The notes under the pieces are model-generated. The model saw nothing but the letters and a program-made list of their open reading frames with translations, searched no databases and was not told the origin of the DNA. From contig NZ_CP037452.1 in assembly GCF_007754425.1 (NCBI RefSeq), forward strand, positions 6,055,164 to 6,119,163: DNA of 64,000 nucleotides. Reading direction: 5' to 3'. The DNA is from Gimesia fumaroli. Lineage in GTDB: Bacteria; Planctomycetota; Planctomycetia; Planctomycetales; Planctomycetaceae. Positions 14,506-24,328 of the stretch are shown in pieces. Each line of letters opens with the position of its first letter. Positions within the stretch are counted from its first letter, which is position 1. Made by a program: the position numbers and the translations under genes.

Positions 14506-15573
14506 TCAGCCATTGGTTTCCGGTAGGGTTGCTTCTGCGCCATCGATTCCTTCCAGTTCTTCAAGCTCTTTCTCCGCTTCCCGCTCTGCCTGACTCAGCT
14601 TCAGCCCCTCACGATTGGAAAAATACAATCCGATCAGTGTCACTGGAATATATTGAGAAAGCTGGTAGTAAATGGAGGCTGCGAAAACATCTGCCTTTGA
14701 AACACCAAAGCCTTGCAGACTGACCCAGAAGCAAAACTGAACAATACCAAAGAACCCTGGCGTGGAAGGTACCGTCACACCGAACGCTGTTACCCCCAGC
14801 ACCACAAGCGCTGCGAATGGCGTGACTTGAATATCAAAACTCCAGAGCGCAACGAAAATACTCAGCCCATTGATGGCCCACTGTGCAAAGGAGGTCCAGA
14901 TGATTCCAAAACTCAGCCGCTTGCTTTTCATCGATGCCATTCCGAGAGCCCCCGATTGCATCATTTCCAAAACCAGATGCGTCAACTTCTCAGGCAGGAA
15001 TCGCAAGTAACTGAAAATTTTACGAAACAGACCAATCACGGCATCGGTCCAGATCAGATAGGCGGCTACGACCAGGATCGTCACACAAATAACGAGTGCC
15101 ATAACCAGACTGAGAGAGCGATATTCATCAGGAACATTCGGAGCAAAATAGACCCCAATTCCCAGAAAACACAAAATCGCCACGATATCAAACAACCGCT
15201 CGAGAACGACTGTCGAAAGGACGGTCGTCTTGGGGATCTGAAACTGTTTGCTCATCACATAGACCCGCAAAAACTCCCCCAGATGAGCAGGCAGGATGTT
15301 ATTTCCCATAAATCCAATCATCATCGCCGGGGTAACCTGCCAGACGGAAAGATTTTTGACCGGCTCCAGCAGCATCCGCCAGCGCAATGCTTTAAGCCAG
15401 AAGAAGATATAGAGTAGTGCTAACATTACTGGCAAAGTCCAGTAGTTCGCACGTTTGAAACTTTGTTTGATCTGTTCAAGATCAATTCCCCAGACAGCTG
15501 CCAGCAGGCAGGTGACTGTGATGATGATTCCGATCACCAGCTTGATCAATTTTGATTTATTAATTTGAATCAC
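14506..15573 (-). CDS. Flippase-like UPF0104 / lysylphosphatidylglycerol synthase transmembrane family protein
   Basis: A 355-residue integral membrane protein with about eight hydrophobic segments between residues 10 and 325 and a charged, Glu-rich cytoplasmic tail (about 326-355). The sequence NNILPAHLGEFLRVYVM (about residues 90-106) is the signature region of the UPF0104/AglD-like family, related to the membrane half of MprF. Members are linked to lipid or glycolipid transfer; the substrate is unknown. The start is uncertain: the GTG at 15573 overlaps the only AGGAG site, so initiation may use another codon shortly downstream. Its neighbours give no pathway hint. Confidence 0.8.
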   Translation of the reverse strand: MIQINKSKLIKLVIGIIITVTCLLAAVWGIDLEQIKQSFKRANYWTLPVMLALLYIFFWLKALRWRMLLEPVKNLSVWQVTPAMMIGFMGNNILPAHLGEFLRVYVMSKQFQIPKTTVLSTVVLERLFDIVAILCFLGIGVYFAPNVPDEYRSLSLVMALVICVTILVVAAYLIWTDAVIGLFRKIFSYLRFLPEKLTHLVLEMMQSGALGMASMKSKRLSFGIIWTSFAQWAINGLSIFVALWSFDIQVTPFAALVVLGVTAFGVTVPSTPGFFGIVQFCFWVSLQGFGVSKADVFAASIYYQLSQYIPVTLIGLYFSNREGLKLSQAEREAEKELEELEGIDGAEATLPETNG

Positions 15574-16281: not shown

Positions 16282-17874
16282 TCACATTACTGAGAAGTAG
16301 TTTTCGACCGCAAAGTCAAAAGCGTCTGGTGAAAGTTTCTTAGGCATTTCTTTGTAAACGCAGAAATTTTTCACCTGCAGTAACAGGTCGCGTGGCTGAC
16401 AGGCACGGAACGGCCGATTGACGGCTTTGTAATGCGTGTCGACCAGATACTGGTATGACTTCTCGTCAAATTGAAAGCCCATCAACGGTGCCATCAACTC
16501 GAACAGCGCCCGAAATTCCTCTTCCGAAGGATCGAGGGCTTCGATCTTGTACGGAATCCGCCGCAAAAACGCAGCGTCAACAAGATCCTTCGGCTCCAGG
16601 TTCGTCGAAAAGATAATCAACTGGTCAAACGGAACCTGGATTTTCTTTCCACTGGGAAGGTTCAGAAAGTCGTATCGTTTTTCCAGAGGCACAATCCAGC
16701 GATTTAATAATTCGTCAACGGGCATTCTCTGTCGGCCAAAGTCATCAATCACGAATGTGCCGCAATTACTTTTCAACTGCAGGGGTGCTTCACAGATTTT
16801 GGTCTGCGGGTTTTGGGTGATCTCCAGTTCTTTCATGGTCAATTCACCCCCCGCAATCACGGTCGGACGCACAATCTGAACCCAGCGTGGGTCGACGCCT
16901 GATAAATCAAACAGCCCCTCTGAATTGTTTTCTTGAATGACCTCTTCATGCAATCCGGGATCAAAAATGCGAATGATATCCCCATCAATGCCCAGACAAC
17001 GGGGCACCCAGATCGTTGACCCAAAGGCTTTGGTAATTCGTTCGGCAATACTGGTTTTTCCGTTACCGGCTTCACCGAATAGAAACATCCCCCGCCCTGA
17101 ATTGACGGCAGGTCCCAGGCGATCCAGCATTTTCGGATTGATAATCAAATCGGAAAATGCTTCTTTCAAATCTGCTTCTGTTGCTTCCTGCTTGGCAATA
17201 CTCTGGGCTTCCATTGCCTTCAGATAATCTTTGAAACAAACGGGAGCCGCACCGAAATAAGTACACTCTTGTGTATAGCGCCGGGCGCGCTCGCGCCCCA
17301 GTTCGGTAATCGTAAATTCATAGTCGCCCATTTCAGCCGTGCCACCATAGGCCACCAGTTGATCCTGCTTGGCACGTTTCAAAATGGGGTCGATAATCCC
17401 GAACGGAAGTTTAACCTGCTGACTGATTTGGCGCCCGGTCTGTGTTCCTTTGGCAAGCAGGTACTTTAGGATCAGGCGTTCGATTTCATCCTGGGTTAAG
17501 CCGGTGTCTTCTAGCGTTTCAGGGCATTGAGGAATAAAGCTTCCGTGTTGCTGCTCTTCAGCGTCGCCCTTCAAAAGTGACTGCACACGATTAAACAACT
17601 GGCTGAGGTGCTGATCTTTACCGATCACTCGCATTGGCTCAGAGACATCCGTTTCGCCGGAAAGCTGTTCCGCAGTTTTGATCGCCAACTCTTCCAGCGC
17701 AGCTTCGTTACTCGGATCGTCCGAATCACCATCACCGGTCAGATTCAGCATGCTGAGCGAAGCCAGCAATTCTTCGGTGTTGACAGCATTCGAGGCAGTT
17801 TTGCCCAGCTTCTCAGGATCACTGGTTTTGTCTAACAAACTTGAAAGATCGGATTCAGAGTCGTTCGCTGCCAT
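16282..17874 (-). CDS. AAA+ ATPase with N-terminal winged helix
   Basis: A 530-residue protein starting at the ATG at 17874, the first Met of the likely mature sequence; the longer frame adds 38 unrelated residues. The first 90 residues are acidic and disordered. Residues about 120-210 read as a winged helix ([21 protein letters not shown]). An AAA+ module follows, with Walker [10 protein letters not shown] (about 269-277), Walker B FVIDDFG (about 373-379), a sensor-1-like segment IIFSTNLEP, and an arginine-finger region [10 protein letters not shown]. The combination suggests a DNA- or partner-recruited ATPase, perhaps of the MoxR/chaperone kind, but I cannot name the substrate. It appears to be a single-gene unit. 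Confidence 0.8.
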
Positions 17875-18230
17875 GGTCGGTTCACAATCAATCAATTTGC
17901 ACTGAAATAAACAGTTTGCATCACCTGAATAATATCGCACTGACAATAAAAGCCTGTCAGGAATGATCCAGATAAAATGCAGTGACATTTCATTTTCTTA
18001 GATGCAAGGAAACCTTAGGTCATATAACTCACAAGTCAAATCGATTCTGAACGACAACAGAAAGAACCAGCCCCCCTCTTTCAGTGCAGTCCCTCCCAGA
18101 TGATCCTGTGAATACCCATTCAAGCCCGGGTATCGATCAGTCCGTTTATACCATTCTTCCCGATTAAGCATCGCAAAGAAGATGCGGCCGTTTATTTTTA
18201 TGAACGATAGTGCGATCAAAGACTTACGAT
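17875..18230. other. Divergent intergenic region
   Basis: No convincing gene: a 73-codon minus-strand frame here has no ribosome-binding site. The region should hold the promoter of the AAA+ ATPase gene and lies upstream of the amide/acyl operon promoter. Confidence 0.5.
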
Positions 18231-18258
18231 TTGACTTGATATCGCGGCGACCTAGATT
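18231..18258 (+). promoter_or_regulatory. Putative promoter of the asparagine synthase operon
   Basis: TTGACT (18231-18236) and TAGATT (18253-18258) are separated by 16 bp. The -35 is a near-perfect match and the -10 matches four of six positions. It would give a leader of about 60 nt before the ATG at 18324. Confidence 0.5.
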
Positions 18259-18323
18259 CCTTCTGTAAGAGGTCCCATTCTCGAATGGGCAAGGTCTGTC
18301 TTCACCTACGTATCGGATTAACT

Positions 18324-20297
18324 ATGTGCGGAATTGCGGGAATCATTCAGTCTGACCGACAACCAGTCCAACAGACCGAATTGCAGAACATGATTGAAAC
18401 ACTCAATCATCGTGGCCCGGATGCTTCAGGCGTCTCACCATTGGGCTCCGTCGGATTTGCACATAGCCGCTTAAGCATTGTCGACCTCACCGGCGGTTTG
18501 CAGCCAATGCAGTCCCCTGACGGAATGCTGACCGTCACCTTCAATGGTGAAATTTATAATCATATTGAACTCCGAGCACTGCTTTCGAGTAAAGGCTATC
18601 AGTTCCGTACTCATTCCGATACGGAAGTCATTCTGCATATGTATGCTGAATACGGACCCGAATGCGTTCAACAATTCAACGGCCAATGGGCCTTTGCCAT
18701 TCATGATCAGAAACAACAGCTGGTGTTTCTGTCTCGAGATCGCATGGGAATCCGCCCGCTTGTTTATACGCAGACACCAGGTCGATTCCTGTTCGCCTCG
18801 GAAGTCAAAGCTCTCTTTGCTCTACCTGATGTCGAACGCAAGGTCGATCTGGCCGCGATGAACCAGCTGTTTACATTCTGGTCGCCTTTGCCGCCACGTA
18901 CATTTTTTGAGGGTGTATCCGAACTCCCTCCCGCACACTCCATGATTGTCAAAAACGGTCAAATCAAGATCTGGCAATACTGGAATCTGGACTACAGCCC
19001 GAACGAAGAACATAGAAGCCTGGACGATTGGGCTGAAGAACTGCGGGCCTTGTTGATCAATGCTACCCAGCTTCGTTTACGGGCAGATGTCTCTGTCGGT
19101 GCCTACTTGAGTGGCGGGCTCGACTCGTCAGTCACAGCCGCCATCATTCGCAATTTCACCAATGCGCCGCTGAATACGTTCTCCGTAAACTTCAACGATA
19201 AAGACTACGACGAAAGCCAGTTTCAACAGGAAATGATCCGGGAACTGGGAACAGATCATCAGACCGTCTGCTGCTCTTACGAAGACATTGGTCGCATCTT
19301 CCCACAGGTAATTCAGCACACCGAAAAACCGGTCCTGCGAACGGCGCCCGCGCCGATGTACCTCTTGTCACGGCTGGTTAAAGAAAATCAATTCAAGGTT
19401 GTAATGACCGGCGAAGGGGCCGACGAAGTGCTCGGCGGGTACGACATATTCAAAGAGACCAAGATCAGACGTTTCTGGAGTCGTCAGCCCGATTCAAAAA
19501 TTCGACCGTTGTTGTTGAAGCGACTCTACCCGTACATGAAAAATCTGCAGGCACAGTCCCCCGCTTATCTCAAAGCGTTTTTCAAAATCCGTGAGGATGA
19601 AATCAACAGCCCGTTCTTTTCACACCTGCCTCGCTGGGATTTAACCGCCAAGCTGAAAACATTTTTCAGCGATGACGTCAAACAGGAACTGGTCAACCAG
19701 GACCCGTTGACAGATTTTTCCGACCAGTTACCGGAACACTTTTCAAAATGGCCTTCCTTCTGTCAGGCACAATATCTCGAATCCATCAACCTGATGCCCG
19801 GCTACATTTTGTCTTCTCAGGGTGACCGGATGGCAATGGGCAATTCCATTGAAGGTCGCTTTCCGTTTCTGGATTACCGCGTCGTTGAATTCGCTGCTCG
19901 AATTCCCGTGCGATACAAAATGAACGGGCTCAACGAGAAATTTCTGCTCAAATACGCAATGCGCGACTTGATCCCCGATAGTATTCGGAAACGCCCCAAA
20001 CAACCTTATCGCGCACCAGACGCACATAGTTTTATCGATACCGACAAACAGAAAGCCCGTTTCGAATATGTCGAACGGCTATTGTCACCCGAAAAGCTGA
20101 AAGAGAGTGGCCTGTTTCAACCAACAGCCGTCCAGCGCCTGGTCAAGAAAATTGAACAGGGACGCGCCATCGGCACGCGAGACAACATGGCACTGGTTGG
20201 CATTCTTTCCACACAACTGCTGGTGGAACAAATGATCCAGGGACAACCAGCACCTCAAGAAAACAAGCGCACTGAGAGTGCGGCGTTACAAACTTAA
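18324..20297 (+). CDS. asnB: Glutamine-dependent asparagine synthase family amidotransferase
   Basis: A 657-residue two-domain enzyme. The glutaminase domain starts with MCGIAGII, so Cys2 becomes the N-terminal nucleophile after Met removal, and continues with NHRGPDASG and FNGEIYNH. The synthetase domain has the PP-loop SGGLDSS (about residue 265) that binds ATP. The family transfers glutamine ammonia to a carboxylate activated as an acyl-AMP, making an amide. I chose the ATG at 18324 since the nucleophile must be residue 2. It heads a five-gene operon with an acyl carrier protein, an AMP-forming ligase, an NAD-synthase-like protein and a polysaccharide deacetylase, so free asparagine may not be the product. 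Similar enzymes are found in exosortase-linked exopolysaccharide loci. Confidence 0.9.
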   Translation: MCGIAGIIQSDRQPVQQTELQNMIETLNHRGPDASGVSPLGSVGFAHSRLSIVDLTGGLQPMQSPDGMLTVTFNGEIYNHIELRALLSSKGYQFRTHSDTEVILHMYAEYGPECVQQFNGQWAFAIHDQKQQLVFLSRDRMGIRPLVYTQTPGRFLFASEVKALFALPDVERKVDLAAMNQLFTFWSPLPPRTFFEGVSELPPAHSMIVKNGQIKIWQYWNLDYSPNEEHRSLDDWAEELRALLINATQLRLRADVSVGAYLSGGLDSSVTAAIIRNFTNAPLNTFSVNFNDKDYDESQFQQEMIRELGTDHQTVCCSYEDIGRIFPQVIQHTEKPVLRTAPAPMYLLSRLVKENQFKVVMTGEGADEVLGGYDIFKETKIRRFWSRQPDSKIRPLLLKRLYPYMKNLQAQSPAYLKAFFKIREDEINSPFFSHLPRWDLTAKLKTFFSDDVKQELVNQDPLTDFSDQLPEHFSKWPSFCQAQYLESINLMPGYILSSQGDRMAMGNSIEGRFPFLDYRVVEFAARIPVRYKMNGLNEKFLLKYAMRDLIPDSIRKRPKQPYRAPDAHSFIDTDKQKARFEYVERLLSPEKLKESGLFQPTAVQRLVKKIEQGRAIGTRDNMALVGILSTQLLVEQMIQGQPAPQENKRTESAALQT

Positions 20298-20353
20298 CTG
20301 TTTACTGACACAAATAATCCTTAACTAATATCTACTACTTTAGAGGTAAGAAA

Positions 20354-20620
20354 ATGAGCTCTGTCCAATCGATTCAATCTGATGTACGAAATTTTGTGGC
20401 TGACAATTTCCTGTTCGGCGAAGCCCCGGAATCACTCAACAACGATGATTCGTTTCTGGAAACAGGAATTATCGACTCAACAGGTGTCCTCGAACTGGTG
20501 GCCTTCATCGAAGACAGGTATTCCGTTGAAGTCGATGACGATGAACTGGTTCCTGAAAACCTGGATTCGATTGATCGTCTGATCAATTTCATTGAATCAA
20601 AACTCAAAGAATTAGCTTAA
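20354..20620 (+). CDS. Acyl carrier protein of the amide/acyl operon
   Basis: An 88-residue acyl/peptidyl carrier protein. The attachment motif is DSTG (Ser about residue 40) within the ETGIIDSTGVLELVAF region, instead of the DSL of the fatty-acid ACP, and helix 2 and the acidic helix 3 region (VEVDDDELVPENLDS) are as expected. The serine would be loaded with 4'-phosphopantetheine. A clear AGAGG site precedes the ATG. It lies between asparagine synthase and AMP-forming ligase genes with short gaps (56 and 19 bp), so it probably carries the acyl group activated by that ligase. It is not the fatty-acid ACP. Confidence 0.9.
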   Translation: MSSVQSIQSDVRNFVADNFLFGEAPESLNNDDSFLETGIIDSTGVLELVAFIEDRYSVEVDDDELVPENLDSIDRLINFIESKLKELA

Positions 20621-20639
20621 GTTCCGAAGGAGCAGGCCG

Positions 20640-22196
20640 TTGTTGCTGCAATCATTTTTAGAACAGAGTGCGCAAAATCATCCCGAGAAAGTCGCGCTGG
20701 TTGTCGACCAGAATCGCTATACGTACCTGGAACTCGAACAGCAGAGTAATCGCCTGGCACAGGCATTATTGCAGCGCGGACTCGAGCGTGGAGACCGGGT
20801 CGCTATCCATCTCGAAAATTCTCTGGAAGCTGCCGTCGCAATTTTCGCAGTGCTGAAAGCGGGCGGCGTGTTTGTGATGGTCAACCCCACCACCAAGATC
20901 GATAAATTAACGTACGTTCTGAATAACTGCCGTGCCCACGTTCTGATCATTCCGGAGAAGAAACGCAAAACGGTTTTCGAAAATTCCGATCTGTTACCAC
21001 ATTTGAAAAACGCAATTACGGTCGGAACAACTGCCGAATCACCAGAAGACAATGAACTGCAAATGCCCCGGTTTGATGCCTGGGATCAACTGCAGTCAGA
21101 ATTCGCCGATCACATTTCACCGCCGGCAATCCCCACGATCAACATCGATCTGGCAGCCCTCGTTTACACATCCGGTTCCACCGGAAATCCCAAAGGGGTC
21201 ATGCTAACTCACTTAAATATGACCTCGGCGGCACGTTCCATTACGACCTACTTAATGAACGAGCCTTCGGACATCATTCTGAATGTGCTCCCGCTCTCCT
21301 TCGATTATGGCTTGTACCAACTACTGATGGCGTTTCGCGTGGGCGCGACACTGGTTCTCGAAAAATCATTCACATACCCACATGCGGTCCTGCAGAAAAT
21401 CATCAGCGAACGTGTCACCGGCTTTCCGCTGGTTCCCACGATGTCTGCCATTCTGTTGAAAATGGATCTCTCGAAATACGATTTTTCGAAGCTGCGATAC
21501 ATCACTAATACAGGAGCCGCCTTACCTACGGAACACATTCTCACCTTCCGCAAACGACTGCCCCACGTACAGATATTTTCGATGTACGGTCTCACCGAAT
21601 GCAAACGGGTCTCGTACCTTCCTCTGGATCAGGTTGATACCAGAACTGACTCGGTAGGCATCGCCATGCCCGATACCGAAGTTTTCATCGTGGACGATGA
21701 AGGACACCGTCTGCCGCCGGAACATGTTGGCGAACTGGTCGTCCGCGGCGCGAATGTCATGAAGGGTTACTGGGAAGCTCCCGAACAGACCGCAGAGCGT
21801 TTAAAACCAGCCGATTTACCAAACGAAATGCTACTCTATACCGGCGATTTATTCCGCATGGACCGGGAAGGATATCTCTACTTTGTCGGCAGACGTGATG
21901 ACATCATCAAAAGCCGTGGTGAAAAAGTCAGCCCCAAGGAAGTCGAGAATGTCCTGTTCACACACGAGAAAATTTCAGAAGCCGCCGTCATCGGAGATCC
22001 TGATCCGGTCTTAGGAGAATCCATTCGTGCCATCGTCACCCTGATGCCGGGAGAGAAACTGACTGAAAAAGAAGTCCTCGCTTACTGCCGAAAACATTTG
22101 GAAGATTTCATGGTGCCGCAAAAAATCGAGTTTCGGGATGAACTCCCCAAATCTCCGAACGGCAAGATCGATAAAAAACAACTCACACTTCCCTGA
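20640..22196 (+). CDS. AMP-forming acyl/amino-acid ligase (ANL superfamily)
   Basis: A 518-residue adenylating enzyme. The ATP-binding motif YTSGSTGNPKG is at about residues 181-191, the second core motif YGLTEC at about 317, the motif YTGDLF near 402, and the C-terminal catalytic Lys lies in SPNGKIDKKQL. The start is a TTG at 20640 with AAGGAG 7 nt upstream; no ATG lies near. The enzyme would activate a carboxylic acid as acyl-AMP and pass it to the phosphopantetheine of the adjacent carrier protein. It resembles the acyl-CoA ligases described from exosortase-linked polysaccharide loci. The substrate cannot be read from sequence. Confidence 0.9.
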   Translation: MLLQSFLEQSAQNHPEKVALVVDQNRYTYLELEQQSNRLAQALLQRGLERGDRVAIHLENSLEAAVAIFAVLKAGGVFVMVNPTTKIDKLTYVLNNCRAHVLIIPEKKRKTVFENSDLLPHLKNAITVGTTAESPEDNELQMPRFDAWDQLQSEFADHISPPAIPTINIDLAALVYTSGSTGNPKGVMLTHLNMTSAARSITTYLMNEPSDIILNVLPLSFDYGLYQLLMAFRVGATLVLEKSFTYPHAVLQKIISERVTGFPLVPTMSAILLKMDLSKYDFSKLRYITNTGAALPTEHILTFRKRLPHVQIFSMYGLTECKRVSYLPLDQVDTRTDSVGIAMPDTEVFIVDDEGHRLPPEHVGELVVRGANVMKGYWEAPEQTAERLKPADLPNEMLLYTGDLFRMDREGYLYFVGRRDDIIKSRGEKVSPKEVENVLFTHEKISEAAVIGDPDPVLGESIRAIVTLMPGEKLTEKEVLAYCRKHLEDFMVPQKIEFRDELPKSPNGKIDKKQLTLP

Positions 22197-22285
22197 AGTG
22201 AGAGAGGCAAAACGAACAACGTTATAACCAACAATCAGACGATTTGCTGAACGACTCTGTCAGCGAATAAGGAGAATAGAGAAAG

Positions 22286-23287
22286 ATGATCACTCAGACG
22301 AAAACCTTCAGCCCTGAATTATTAAACCTCGATTGTGCAGCTGAAACAGACCGTATCGTCAATTGGATGCAGGAAACGGTTCGCAAAACAATGCGCAAAA
22401 AAGGCGCCGTGCTGGGTTTGTCCGGCGGAATCGACAGTAGCGTGGTCACAGCGTTGTGCGTCCGCGCATTCGGAGCCGACCGCGTCCTGGGAATCATGAT
22501 GCCCGAACACGATACAAAAGATGAAAGTCTGACCTACGGTCAACTGCTGGCAGATCATTTTAACGTCGAAGCCATCGTCGAAAACATCTCACCGATGCTA
22601 CAGGGAGCAGGCTGCTACGAGCGCCGCGATGCCGCCATCAAACAGGTCATACCGGAATATCAGCCGAACTGGAAATCAAAAATTGTTCTGCCTAACCTGC
22701 TCAAGGAGGGCGGCTATCGCGTCTTCTCTGTCGTTGTGCAAACCCCCTCGGGAGAATTCATCAAAAAACGACTCCCATTGTCCGCTTATCAAACCATCGT
22801 CGCCGCGACCAACTTTAAACAACGTTGCCGTAAAATGATGGAATACTATCATGCCGACCGTTTGAACTACGCCGTCCCGGGGACACCGAATCGGCTCGAA
22901 TACGATCAAGGCTTCTTTGTGAAAAACGGCGATGGTGCAGCCGATTTGAAACCGATTGCGCACCTCTATAAATCACAGGTGTATCAGCTCGCCGCCTACC
23001 TGGACGTTCCTGAAGTCATTCGCATGCGGCCTCCCACAACCGACACCTACTCTCTGGAACAGTCTCAGGAAGAATTCTTCTTCGCTGTCTCTTATGACAA
23101 ACTGGACTGCTGTCTCTACGGACTAAACCACGGCTTTCCAGCTGCAGATGTCGCAGCAGGAATTGGGCTTCCCACAGAACAGGTTGAATTGGTTTACGGT
23201 GATATCGAATCCAAACGCAAAGCGGCTCGTTATTTACACATGCCGCCACAGCTGATTGATTCCGTATCCAAACATGCCGAAGCTTAG
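22286..23287 (+). CDS. NAD-synthase-like ATP-dependent amidase/ligase
   Basis: A 333-residue member of the NadE family with the PP-loop LGLSGGIDSSVV (about residues 44-55), which adenylates a carboxylate before amidation. It lacks the nitrilase-type glutaminase domain of the long NadE enzymes, so ammonia must come from elsewhere. It is longer than usual ammonia-dependent NadE (about 275), with an extra stretch around residues 105-160. A good AAGGAG site precedes the ATG. Its place in an operon with a glutamine amidotransferase, carrier protein, ligase and deacetylase suggests either local NAD supply or, more likely, a diverted amide-forming step in the same pathway (inference). Confidence 0.8.
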   Translation: MITQTKTFSPELLNLDCAAETDRIVNWMQETVRKTMRKKGAVLGLSGGIDSSVVTALCVRAFGADRVLGIMMPEHDTKDESLTYGQLLADHFNVEAIVENISPMLQGAGCYERRDAAIKQVIPEYQPNWKSKIVLPNLLKEGGYRVFSVVVQTPSGEFIKKRLPLSAYQTIVAATNFKQRCRKMMEYYHADRLNYAVPGTPNRLEYDQGFFVKNGDGAADLKPIAHLYKSQVYQLAAYLDVPEVIRMRPPTTDTYSLEQSQEEFFFAVSYDKLDCCLYGLNHGFPAADVAAGIGLPTEQVELVYGDIESKRKAARYLHMPPQLIDSVSKHAEA

Positions 23288-23329
23288 TGTGCTCCCAAGC
23301 CGTCAAGAAATCGAACAGGAAACAGAATC

Positions 23330-24328
23330 GTGAGTAAAAGAGAACTCCTGGCAAAAGCACTGGACTGGTCTGGTTTCAATAAACTGGCTCGTTCGACTCA
23401 TCTCTGGAATGGACTGATTGTCTTGAATTACCACCGGGTCGGTGAAGCCAATCAGTCACTCTTTGACCATGATCTCTGGAGCGCTTCTGTCGAAGGCTTC
23501 GAACAGCAGGTACGTTTCCTCAGCCTGAACTTTGATCTGATCCGCATTCGTGATCTGGACGACCTTTGGAATCGGAAGAAAGGGCGCCACGTTCTGATTA
23601 CCTTCGACGACGGTTATCTCGATAACTATGAATGTGCCTTTCCCATTCTGAAGTCTTATAACTCTCCCGCCACGTTCTTTCTGACAACAGGCTTCCTGGA
23701 TGAAAGAAAAGTAGCCTGGTGGGACGAAATCTCCTGGATGGTGCACAGTGCGACACAAACATCATTACCTGAAAATTCCTGGACAGGCGACGCTGTCTCT
23801 CTGAATGAAGACGACTACGATCAGTCAATCAAAAGACTGCTCAGCGTCTACAAAAAATTATCGGGGGAGAAAACCGAAGCCTATCTGAACTTTCTGGCAG
23901 AGCAAACCGGCGCCGGACGCTGCCCGCAGGAGATCGCAAACCAGATCTGGATGACCTGGGACATGGTCCGGGAAATGAATGACGCCGGCATGGATTTCGG
24001 CGGCCATACTGTCAACCATCCCATTCTGGCAAACCATTCGGAAGAACAACAGCGATTTGAAATTGCACACTGCAAACAGAGAATTGAAACGGAACTCAAC
24101 GATTCGATCTCTGCCTTCAGCTACCCGGTCGGGGGCAAAGACTGCTTCGATCAACGAACAAGAGACTGCCTGAAGCAGACCGGTTATCGCTGGGGCTTCA
24201 GTTATTACGGCGGCTACTCCCAACTCGGCACACCTGACAATTGGGATATCCCGCGGATCGCCGTGGAATCCGAAGAACCAGCAACTCTCTTTCGTGCCGC
24301 CATCTCACTCCCACAAGTCTTTTGCTGA
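23330..24328 (+). CDS. Polysaccharide deacetylase family protein (NodB homology)
   Basis: A 332-residue NodB-type hydrolase. The metal-binding TFDDGYLDN motif is at about residues 87-95, the HTVNH motif (two His ligands) at about 220, and the FSYPVGG motif at about 262. These enzymes remove acetyl groups from N-acetyl sugars in surface glycans or peptidoglycan. There is no signal peptide, so it may act in the cytoplasm, for example on a lipid-linked precursor. Translation starts at a GTG (23330) with AGGA about 10 nt upstream. It is the last gene of the operon, 42 bp after the NAD-synthase-like gene, and ties the pathway to a glycan substrate. Confidence 0.88.
   Translation: MSKRELLAKALDWSGFNKLARSTHLWNGLIVLNYHRVGEANQSLFDHDLWSASVEGFEQQVRFLSLNFDLIRIRDLDDLWNRKKGRHVLITFDDGYLDNYECAFPILKSYNSPATFFLTTGFLDERKVAWWDEISWMVHSATQTSLPENSWTGDAVSLNEDDYDQSIKRLLSVYKKLSGEKTEAYLNFLAEQTGAGRCPQEIANQIWMTWDMVREMNDAGMDFGGHTVNHPILANHSEEQQRFEIAHCKQRIETELNDSISAFSYPVGGKDCFDQRTRDCLKQTGYRWGFSYYGGYSQLGTPDNWDIPRIAVESEEPATLFRAAISLPQVFC

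Follow-up and report, generated by a model that had tools for sequence, protein, structure and literature searches.

The exosortase A (XrtA) exopolysaccharide (EPS) kit combines an AMP-forming ligase (TIGR03098), an amidotransferase (TIGR03108) and a polysaccharide deacetylase, and uses a pyridoxal phosphate (PLP) decarboxylase instead of an enzyme resembling NadE, the NH3-dependent NAD synthetase. In the Wbp/Vim linking-sugar pathway of Porphyromonas gingivalis, the deacetylase VimE, the GNAT-type aminoacyl transferase VimA and the AsnB-type amidotransferase WbpS act on a sugar and build an N-aminoacyl uronamide sugar; the available passages of its description contain no acyl carrier protein (ACP), ligase or NadE-like enzyme (PMC7468200). 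A ligase that is cotranscribed with an ACP, SMb20650 with SMb20651, has been described from the replicon pSymB of Sinorhizobium meliloti (PMC7232532). Here we report on a window of 64,000 nucleotides from the complete genome (7.70 Mb) of the planctomycete Gimesia fumaroli (NZ_CP037452.1, positions 6,055,164 to 6,119,163 of the forward strand), in which the plus strand from 18324 to 24328 holds five open reading frames (ORFs) for an AsnB-type amidotransferase, an ACP, an AMP-forming ligase, a NadE-like enzyme and a CE4 deacetylase. The conserved unit consists of the first four genes and not of all five: the cassette is a real, conserved and largely undescribed quartet with a lineage-specific deacetylase, and it is a variant of known glycan-tailoring kits. 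The features of the locus are the following:

18231..18258, plus strand: promoter-like hexamers, 9/12 matches; not above chance
18324..20297, plus strand: AsnB-type glutamine-dependent amidotransferase, 657 aa; Pfam Asn_synthase 302 bits, GATase_7 155 bits
20354..20620, plus strand: acyl carrier protein, 88 aa; Pfam PP-binding 27.2 bits, above 20.8
20640..22196, plus strand: AMP-forming acyl/aminoacyl ligase, 518 aa, TTG start; Pfam AMP-binding 324 bits
22286..23287, plus strand: NadE-like N-type ATP pyrophosphatase (PRK00876 type), 333 aa; Pfam NAD_synthase 169 bits
23330..24328, plus strand: CE4/NodB-type polysaccharide deacetylase, 332 aa, GTG start; Pfam Polysacc_deac_1 94.8 bits

The ORFs and their Pfam matches bear out the five plus-strand genes, their family identities and the gaps of 19-89 bp (56, 19, 89 and 42 bp in order) given by an earlier, sequence-only reading of this DNA. 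The observed operon is thus confirmed, and the interpretation then placed on it is supported in part. All five genes stand in the same order in the four other genomes of the genus that carry NadE (4/4), so the arrangement is not due to chance. The promoter suspected in front of the operon did not hold up: eight sites of 9/12 quality were found where shuffled sequences led us to expect 6.8 (standard deviation 2.9), and the site at 18231-18258 is therefore no evidence. None of the five proteins had a PADLOC match, and a defence system was rejected.

Conservation of the core was assessed with a NadE-anchored scan of public genome contigs, which gave 69 loci whose partner genes were located by tblastn within 6 kb. 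In the well-flanked set, comprising the 35 loci in which NadE is flanked to either side by 6 kb or more, AsnB was present in 35/35, the ligase in 33/35, the ACP in 28/35 and all three in 28/35; the cassette genes are not scattered in relatives, which would have spoken against a common system. A conserved five-gene system had to be rejected, since only 10 of the 69 loci have the deacetylase within 6 kb and it stands alone in six genomes of the family where its surroundings were read. Of 294 Planctomycetota genomes drawn independently, 11 had NadE-like matches, namely this genome, four of the five other genus members, 0/11 other genomes of the family and six elsewhere, three of the last with the full quartet, one with AsnB, ACP and NadE and two with NadE alone. 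The distribution is therefore patchy. In a tree of 52 NadE-like proteins, where the window protein groups with Gimesia, ten phylum labels occur and 10 label changes are needed against a minimum of 9, so most phyla hold together; changes number 3 for Planctomycetota and 5 for Myxococcota. The NadE-like protein was also found in 117 plasmid records, mostly from Sinorhizobium, and the cassette itself occurs on rhizobial and Azospirillum plasmids. With the cassette NadE under ten phylum labels, a planctomycete invention was rejected, and the cassette is not compact everywhere, some lineages embedding it in EPS loci. Our searches of open-licence PubMed Central turned up no description of the four genes as a set. 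One locus (L014), on a contig titled Candidatus Kuenenia stuttgartiensis, has a cassette near-identical to those of Planctomyces SH-PL62-type bins, and the title probably arose through an error of binning or naming.

A link to experimental work comes from S. meliloti 1021, where pSymB carries AsnB, ACP, ligase and NadE in this order on one strand, as in the window, with identities of 51%, 53%, 53% and 60%, respectively; it differs in that the same search found no deacetylase there. The cassette ligase is the one AMP-binding enzyme (PF00501) on the entire replicon, and SMb20650 and SMb20651 are therefore very probably the cassette ligase and ACP, an assignment made by deduction as the pSymB record carries no gene names. 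A search with PF00550 returned two ACP matches on pSymB and missed the cassette ACP itself. For the better of the two, the 22 kb read contain no homologue of the cassette ligase, and the ACP at 677.6 kb was rejected as SMb20651 since no ligase is found there. According to the published passages, expression of SMb20650 together with holo-SMb20651 in E. coli leads to acylated SMb20651 (PMC7232532, citing Ramos-Vega et al. 2009), and SMb20650 is unable to replace FadD for growth on oleate (PMC7232532). Together with our deduction, this means that others have demonstrated, in the S. meliloti relatives, the loading of the carrier by the ligase that the sequence-only reading proposed (PMC7232532). 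The function of SMb20651 has been called open (PMC5686131), smb20650 is reported in another study to be down-regulated under predation by Myxococcus xanthus (PMC10315480), and the passages on SMb20650 and SMb20651 do not discuss AsnB or NadE (PMC7232532, PMC5686131). For the tags SMb21515-21521 no match was found in open-licence PubMed Central.

The AsnB ORF formally opens at 18285; we set its start at ATG 18324 because a Cys then directly follows the initiator Met, giving MCGIAG with the glutaminase Cys2. Among 62 aligned cassette AsnBs, Cys2 and the NGE motif (Asn74, Glu76) are each kept in 61, and all 62 have the Asp and the second Gly of SGGLDSS, the synthetase P-loop. With this Cys, this P-loop and a score of 525.4 bits against TIGR01536 (cut-off 267.1), the window protein belongs to the asparagine synthetase B family, and it scores 338, below 499, with the E. 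coli type model PRK09431. In the ACP, Ser42 of the DSTG motif (codon 20477-20479) is the expected phosphopantetheine site, and Asp41 and Ser42 are invariant across 55 aligned cassette ACPs. The ligases share Arg323 in 64/64 cases. Asp222, which we take to correspond to position 235 of the gramicidin adenylation-domain code, is found in 27 of the 34 close cassette ligases and in 30 of all 64, and an amino-acid-specific ligase was rejected on these counts. Ligases of many non-planctomycete loci show only ~30-38% identity; different subfamilies may therefore fill the ligase slot. In two cassettes the ligase gene is present as a tandem pair (L021:6589-9808 and L034:6786-9980). The deacetylase shows the motifs TFDDGY at residue 91, GGHTVNHP at 224 and YPVGG at 265.

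An acyltransferase, absent from the pathway as first proposed, adjoins the cassette in many relatives. A tandem-GNAT-like gene (337-397 aa) directly follows NadE in 11/69 loci, all of them planctomycete, and in six of these 11 the deacetylase comes next after it. The Pfam matches of these proteins are weak. A structure model of moderate confidence (pLDDT 74.8) matches tandem GNATs, N-myristoyltransferases, MprF and an aminoacyl-tRNA-dependent peptide synthase, the best fold match having E 3.3e-8 and TM 0.49. Homologues are encoded in all six genomes of the genus and in 2/11 other family members, there with ~25% identity. In Azospirillum ramasamyi the order is deacetylase-ACP-ligase-AsnB-NadE-GNAT, and the cassette lies downstream of genes for glycosyltransferases, an O-antigen ligase and a glycosylphosphotransferase. 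A different family of 350-370 aa stands beside the cassette in Shinella, Nitratireductor, Roseateles, Mesorhizobium and S. chiapasense; of four members scanned, only one showed so much as a sub-threshold GNAT match (E 0.07). Hexapeptide-type proteins (15 loci), secreted SGNH-like proteins (7) and flippase-like proteins (7) recur within the fetched stretches. Proteins of 271-373 aa beside the cassette in L034, L036, L048, L051, L054, L065 and L071 mostly have a signal-like start and SGNH-type motifs, the GDSL match being weak in the one member of the SGNH-like family scanned (E 0.01). A PrmC/HemK-type methyltransferase, which could methylate an amide nitrogen, is encoded in or near four cassettes (L023:12673-13353, L028:14547-15371, L069:12605-13282 and L101:14139-14864), that of L069 being recognised by similarity only.

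The reading that we prefer, with a probability of roughly 0.42, is an amide pathway that depends on a carrier protein and serves to decorate a glycan of the cell surface or envelope. In a first step the ligase would adenylate a small acid, by our guess an acidic amino acid or a dicarboxylic acid, and load it onto the phosphopantetheine of the ACP at Ser42; this step is the one shown by others in the S. meliloti relatives and would apply to Gimesia by analogy. AsnB, using glutamine, and the NadE-like enzyme, using ammonia and ATP, might then turn the free carboxylate or carboxylates of the bound acid, or of the acceptor, into amides. In a third step the tandem-GNAT acyltransferase, which adjoins NadE in relatives and is encoded elsewhere in the Gimesia genome, may move the finished acyl group onto an amine, and in Gimesia this acceptor amine would be exposed in the cytoplasm by the deacetylase acting on an N-acetyl sugar. 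Steps two to four are suggested by protein families, motifs and neighbourhoods, and both the amidation of the acid and the glycan target are what we infer from these. We favour the carrier-amide pathway because the quartet is syntenic in 28 of the 35 well-flanked loci, under ten phylum labels and on rhizobial and Azospirillum plasmids, because the A. ramasamyi cassette lies with deacetylase and GNAT in an EPS-type locus, and because the tandem GNAT follows NadE in the planctomycete loci described above. The Wbp/Vim pathway offers a comparison for the later steps: the deacetylase is part of the Gimesia operon and a GNAT homologue is encoded elsewhere in the genome.

Several observations weigh against this pathway. 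An ACP was not detected in 7/35 well-flanked loci, two of which also have no detected ligase, and NadE occurs by itself in two of the six further planctomycete genomes (in one of them on a 7-kb contig). Many loci carry the divergent ligases mentioned above without Asp222. The deacetylase is present within 6 kb in 4/35 well-flanked loci; in 7/11 same-family genomes outside the genus it occurs without the cassette, and no cassette gene lies beside it at the six such places read. The single GNAT homologue of the G. fumaroli genome is 29% identical and lies ~528 kb from the operon. One genome of the genus, G227, has GNAT and deacetylase and no NadE match, and we rejected on this account that GNAT and NadE always go together within the genus; as its deacetylase sits on a 6.1-kb contig, 0.1 kb from the end, an assembly gap may hide the cassette. 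In a descriptive Pfam tally of 178 of 390 neighbouring ORFs, hand-chosen from longest-ORF calls and taken for the first 25 families with no random-gene control, glycan genes form a minority, the commonest glycan families having 3 to 10 members each. The genes viewed around the cassette included none for glycans in either Gimesia or S. meliloti, a lipopolysaccharide biosynthesis protein being encoded 12 kb from the cassette of the latter.

It might also be that AsnB works like WbpS and amidates a sugar uronic acid, that the same sugar receives an unrelated acyl group from ligase and ACP and that the NadE-like enzyme makes a second sugar amide. The AsnB score of 416.8 bits with TIGR03108, the exosortase-associated amidotransferase, fits this proposal, and we still consider it unlikely: that score misses the cut-off of 816.9, the cut-off for asparagine synthase is exceeded, and no uronic-acid pathway genes are found among the scanned window neighbours. 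There is likewise a small chance that the product is a diffusible amide, such as an osmolyte, a signal or an antibiotic-like compound, and that the deacetylase and the glycan neighbours are incidental. This would be in line with the position of the cassette amid unrelated genes in S. meliloti and Gimesia, with the PrmC-type methyltransferases within the cassette in a few loci and with the kinship of AsnB to the N-acetylglutaminylglutamine amide enzyme (395 bits, cut-off 570 missed). Against a diffusible product stands the association with a CE4 deacetylase in Gimesia, in SH-PL62-like loci and in Azospirillum, in the last case within an EPS locus, as well as the flippases, sugar transferases and hexapeptide acyltransferases close to many other cassettes.

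It is very improbable that the NadE-like protein serves as a true or reserve NAD synthase and AsnB as a true asparagine synthetase, the two being neighbours without a common product. The NadE-like protein does satisfy fold and family score of the NAD synthetases, retaining the NadE fold and ATP-site motifs and exceeding the cut-off of NF002048 'NAD(+) synthase', and AsnB exceeds that of TIGR01536. The cassette protein differs from NadE in having an insertion with extra strands at about residues 130-163, in its fixed position beside AsnB (35/35 well-flanked loci) and in not being the only NadE-type locus of its genome. Two further ones exist, the best with 231 bits, so that the cassette copy need not make NAD. 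The genome also has two other strong AsnB paralogues, around which there is no ACP, ligase or NadE-like gene. The cassette suggests that a NadE subfamily labelled as NAD synthase does something else. In L111 (G235) and L068 a NadE-like gene has no detected cassette partner nearby, possibly as a remnant of a decayed cassette or in another role. Another AsnB of the genome, at 2471088-2472131 (L096), lies in surroundings that, judged from sequence starts, look like a nonulosonate/O-antigen locus.

The kinship with exosortase-linked EPS enzymes noted in the sequence-only reading is real, exosortase-associated ligase and amidotransferase being the best or second-best subfamily models, and it stays below the cut-offs: the ligase reaches 509.2 bits with TIGR03098 (cut-off 592.35), AsnB misses TIGR03108 as given above and the deacetylase scores 18.3 bits with TIGR03006 (cut-off 276.2). 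Apart from these three failures, the window set differs from the exosortase A kit in its NadE-like enzyme. Also in agreement with that reading, there was no exosortase and no glycosyltransferase among the ten window proteins profile-scanned between 14.5 and 27.7 kb, and a search of the complete genome with PF09721 gave no match at E 0.001 or better. Exosortases were looked for in 48 cassette genomes belonging to the 69 loci, and a match was obtained in 21 and none in 27; the cassette is therefore not always part of an exosortase locus, though some cassettes adjoin exosortases, and dependence on an exosortase was rejected. NadE and exosortase share a contig in six of the 21 genomes, ~2, 9, 12, 15, 40 and 42 kb apart (the matches at 12 and 15 kb being weak, 52-54 bits), and lie on separate contigs in 15, many of these contigs being fragments. 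That the operon is a fragment of an exosortase (XrtA/PEP-CTERM) EPS locus, as the related subfamily models and the exosortase only ~2 kb from one NadE might suggest, is highly improbable and is largely refuted for this genome by the missing exosortase match; the failed cut-offs speak against it too.

In the surroundings of the operon, genes for ribosomal protein S4, adenylate kinase and a sulfatase follow on the 3´ side, and an AAA-like and a flippase-like protein are encoded on the opposite strand on the 5´ side. The latter (14506-15573, minus strand, LPG_synthase_TM, 165 bits), 2.7 kb from the operon, is a possible glycolipid transporter without a link to it. The 568-aa AAA-like protein (16282-17988, minus strand) matches the anti-phage ATPases IetA/IteA with 28.7 and 25.7 bits, far below cut-off.

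For a model symbiont, the cassette gives genetic context to an ACP that has been without a function since 2009. A wider reading, which we regard as doubtful, is that the cassette represents a widespread and undescribed tailoring route, in which an ACP-held acid is amidated by the AsnB/NadE pair and then passed to a glycan amine; the NAD-synthase fold would here have gained an insertion and been recruited to act on carrier-bound acids. If so, many database entries named 'NAD(+) synthase' would be misnamed. If the glycan reading is true, the known decorations of bacterial sugars would be joined by a carrier-protein amide substituent, with or without an exosortase.

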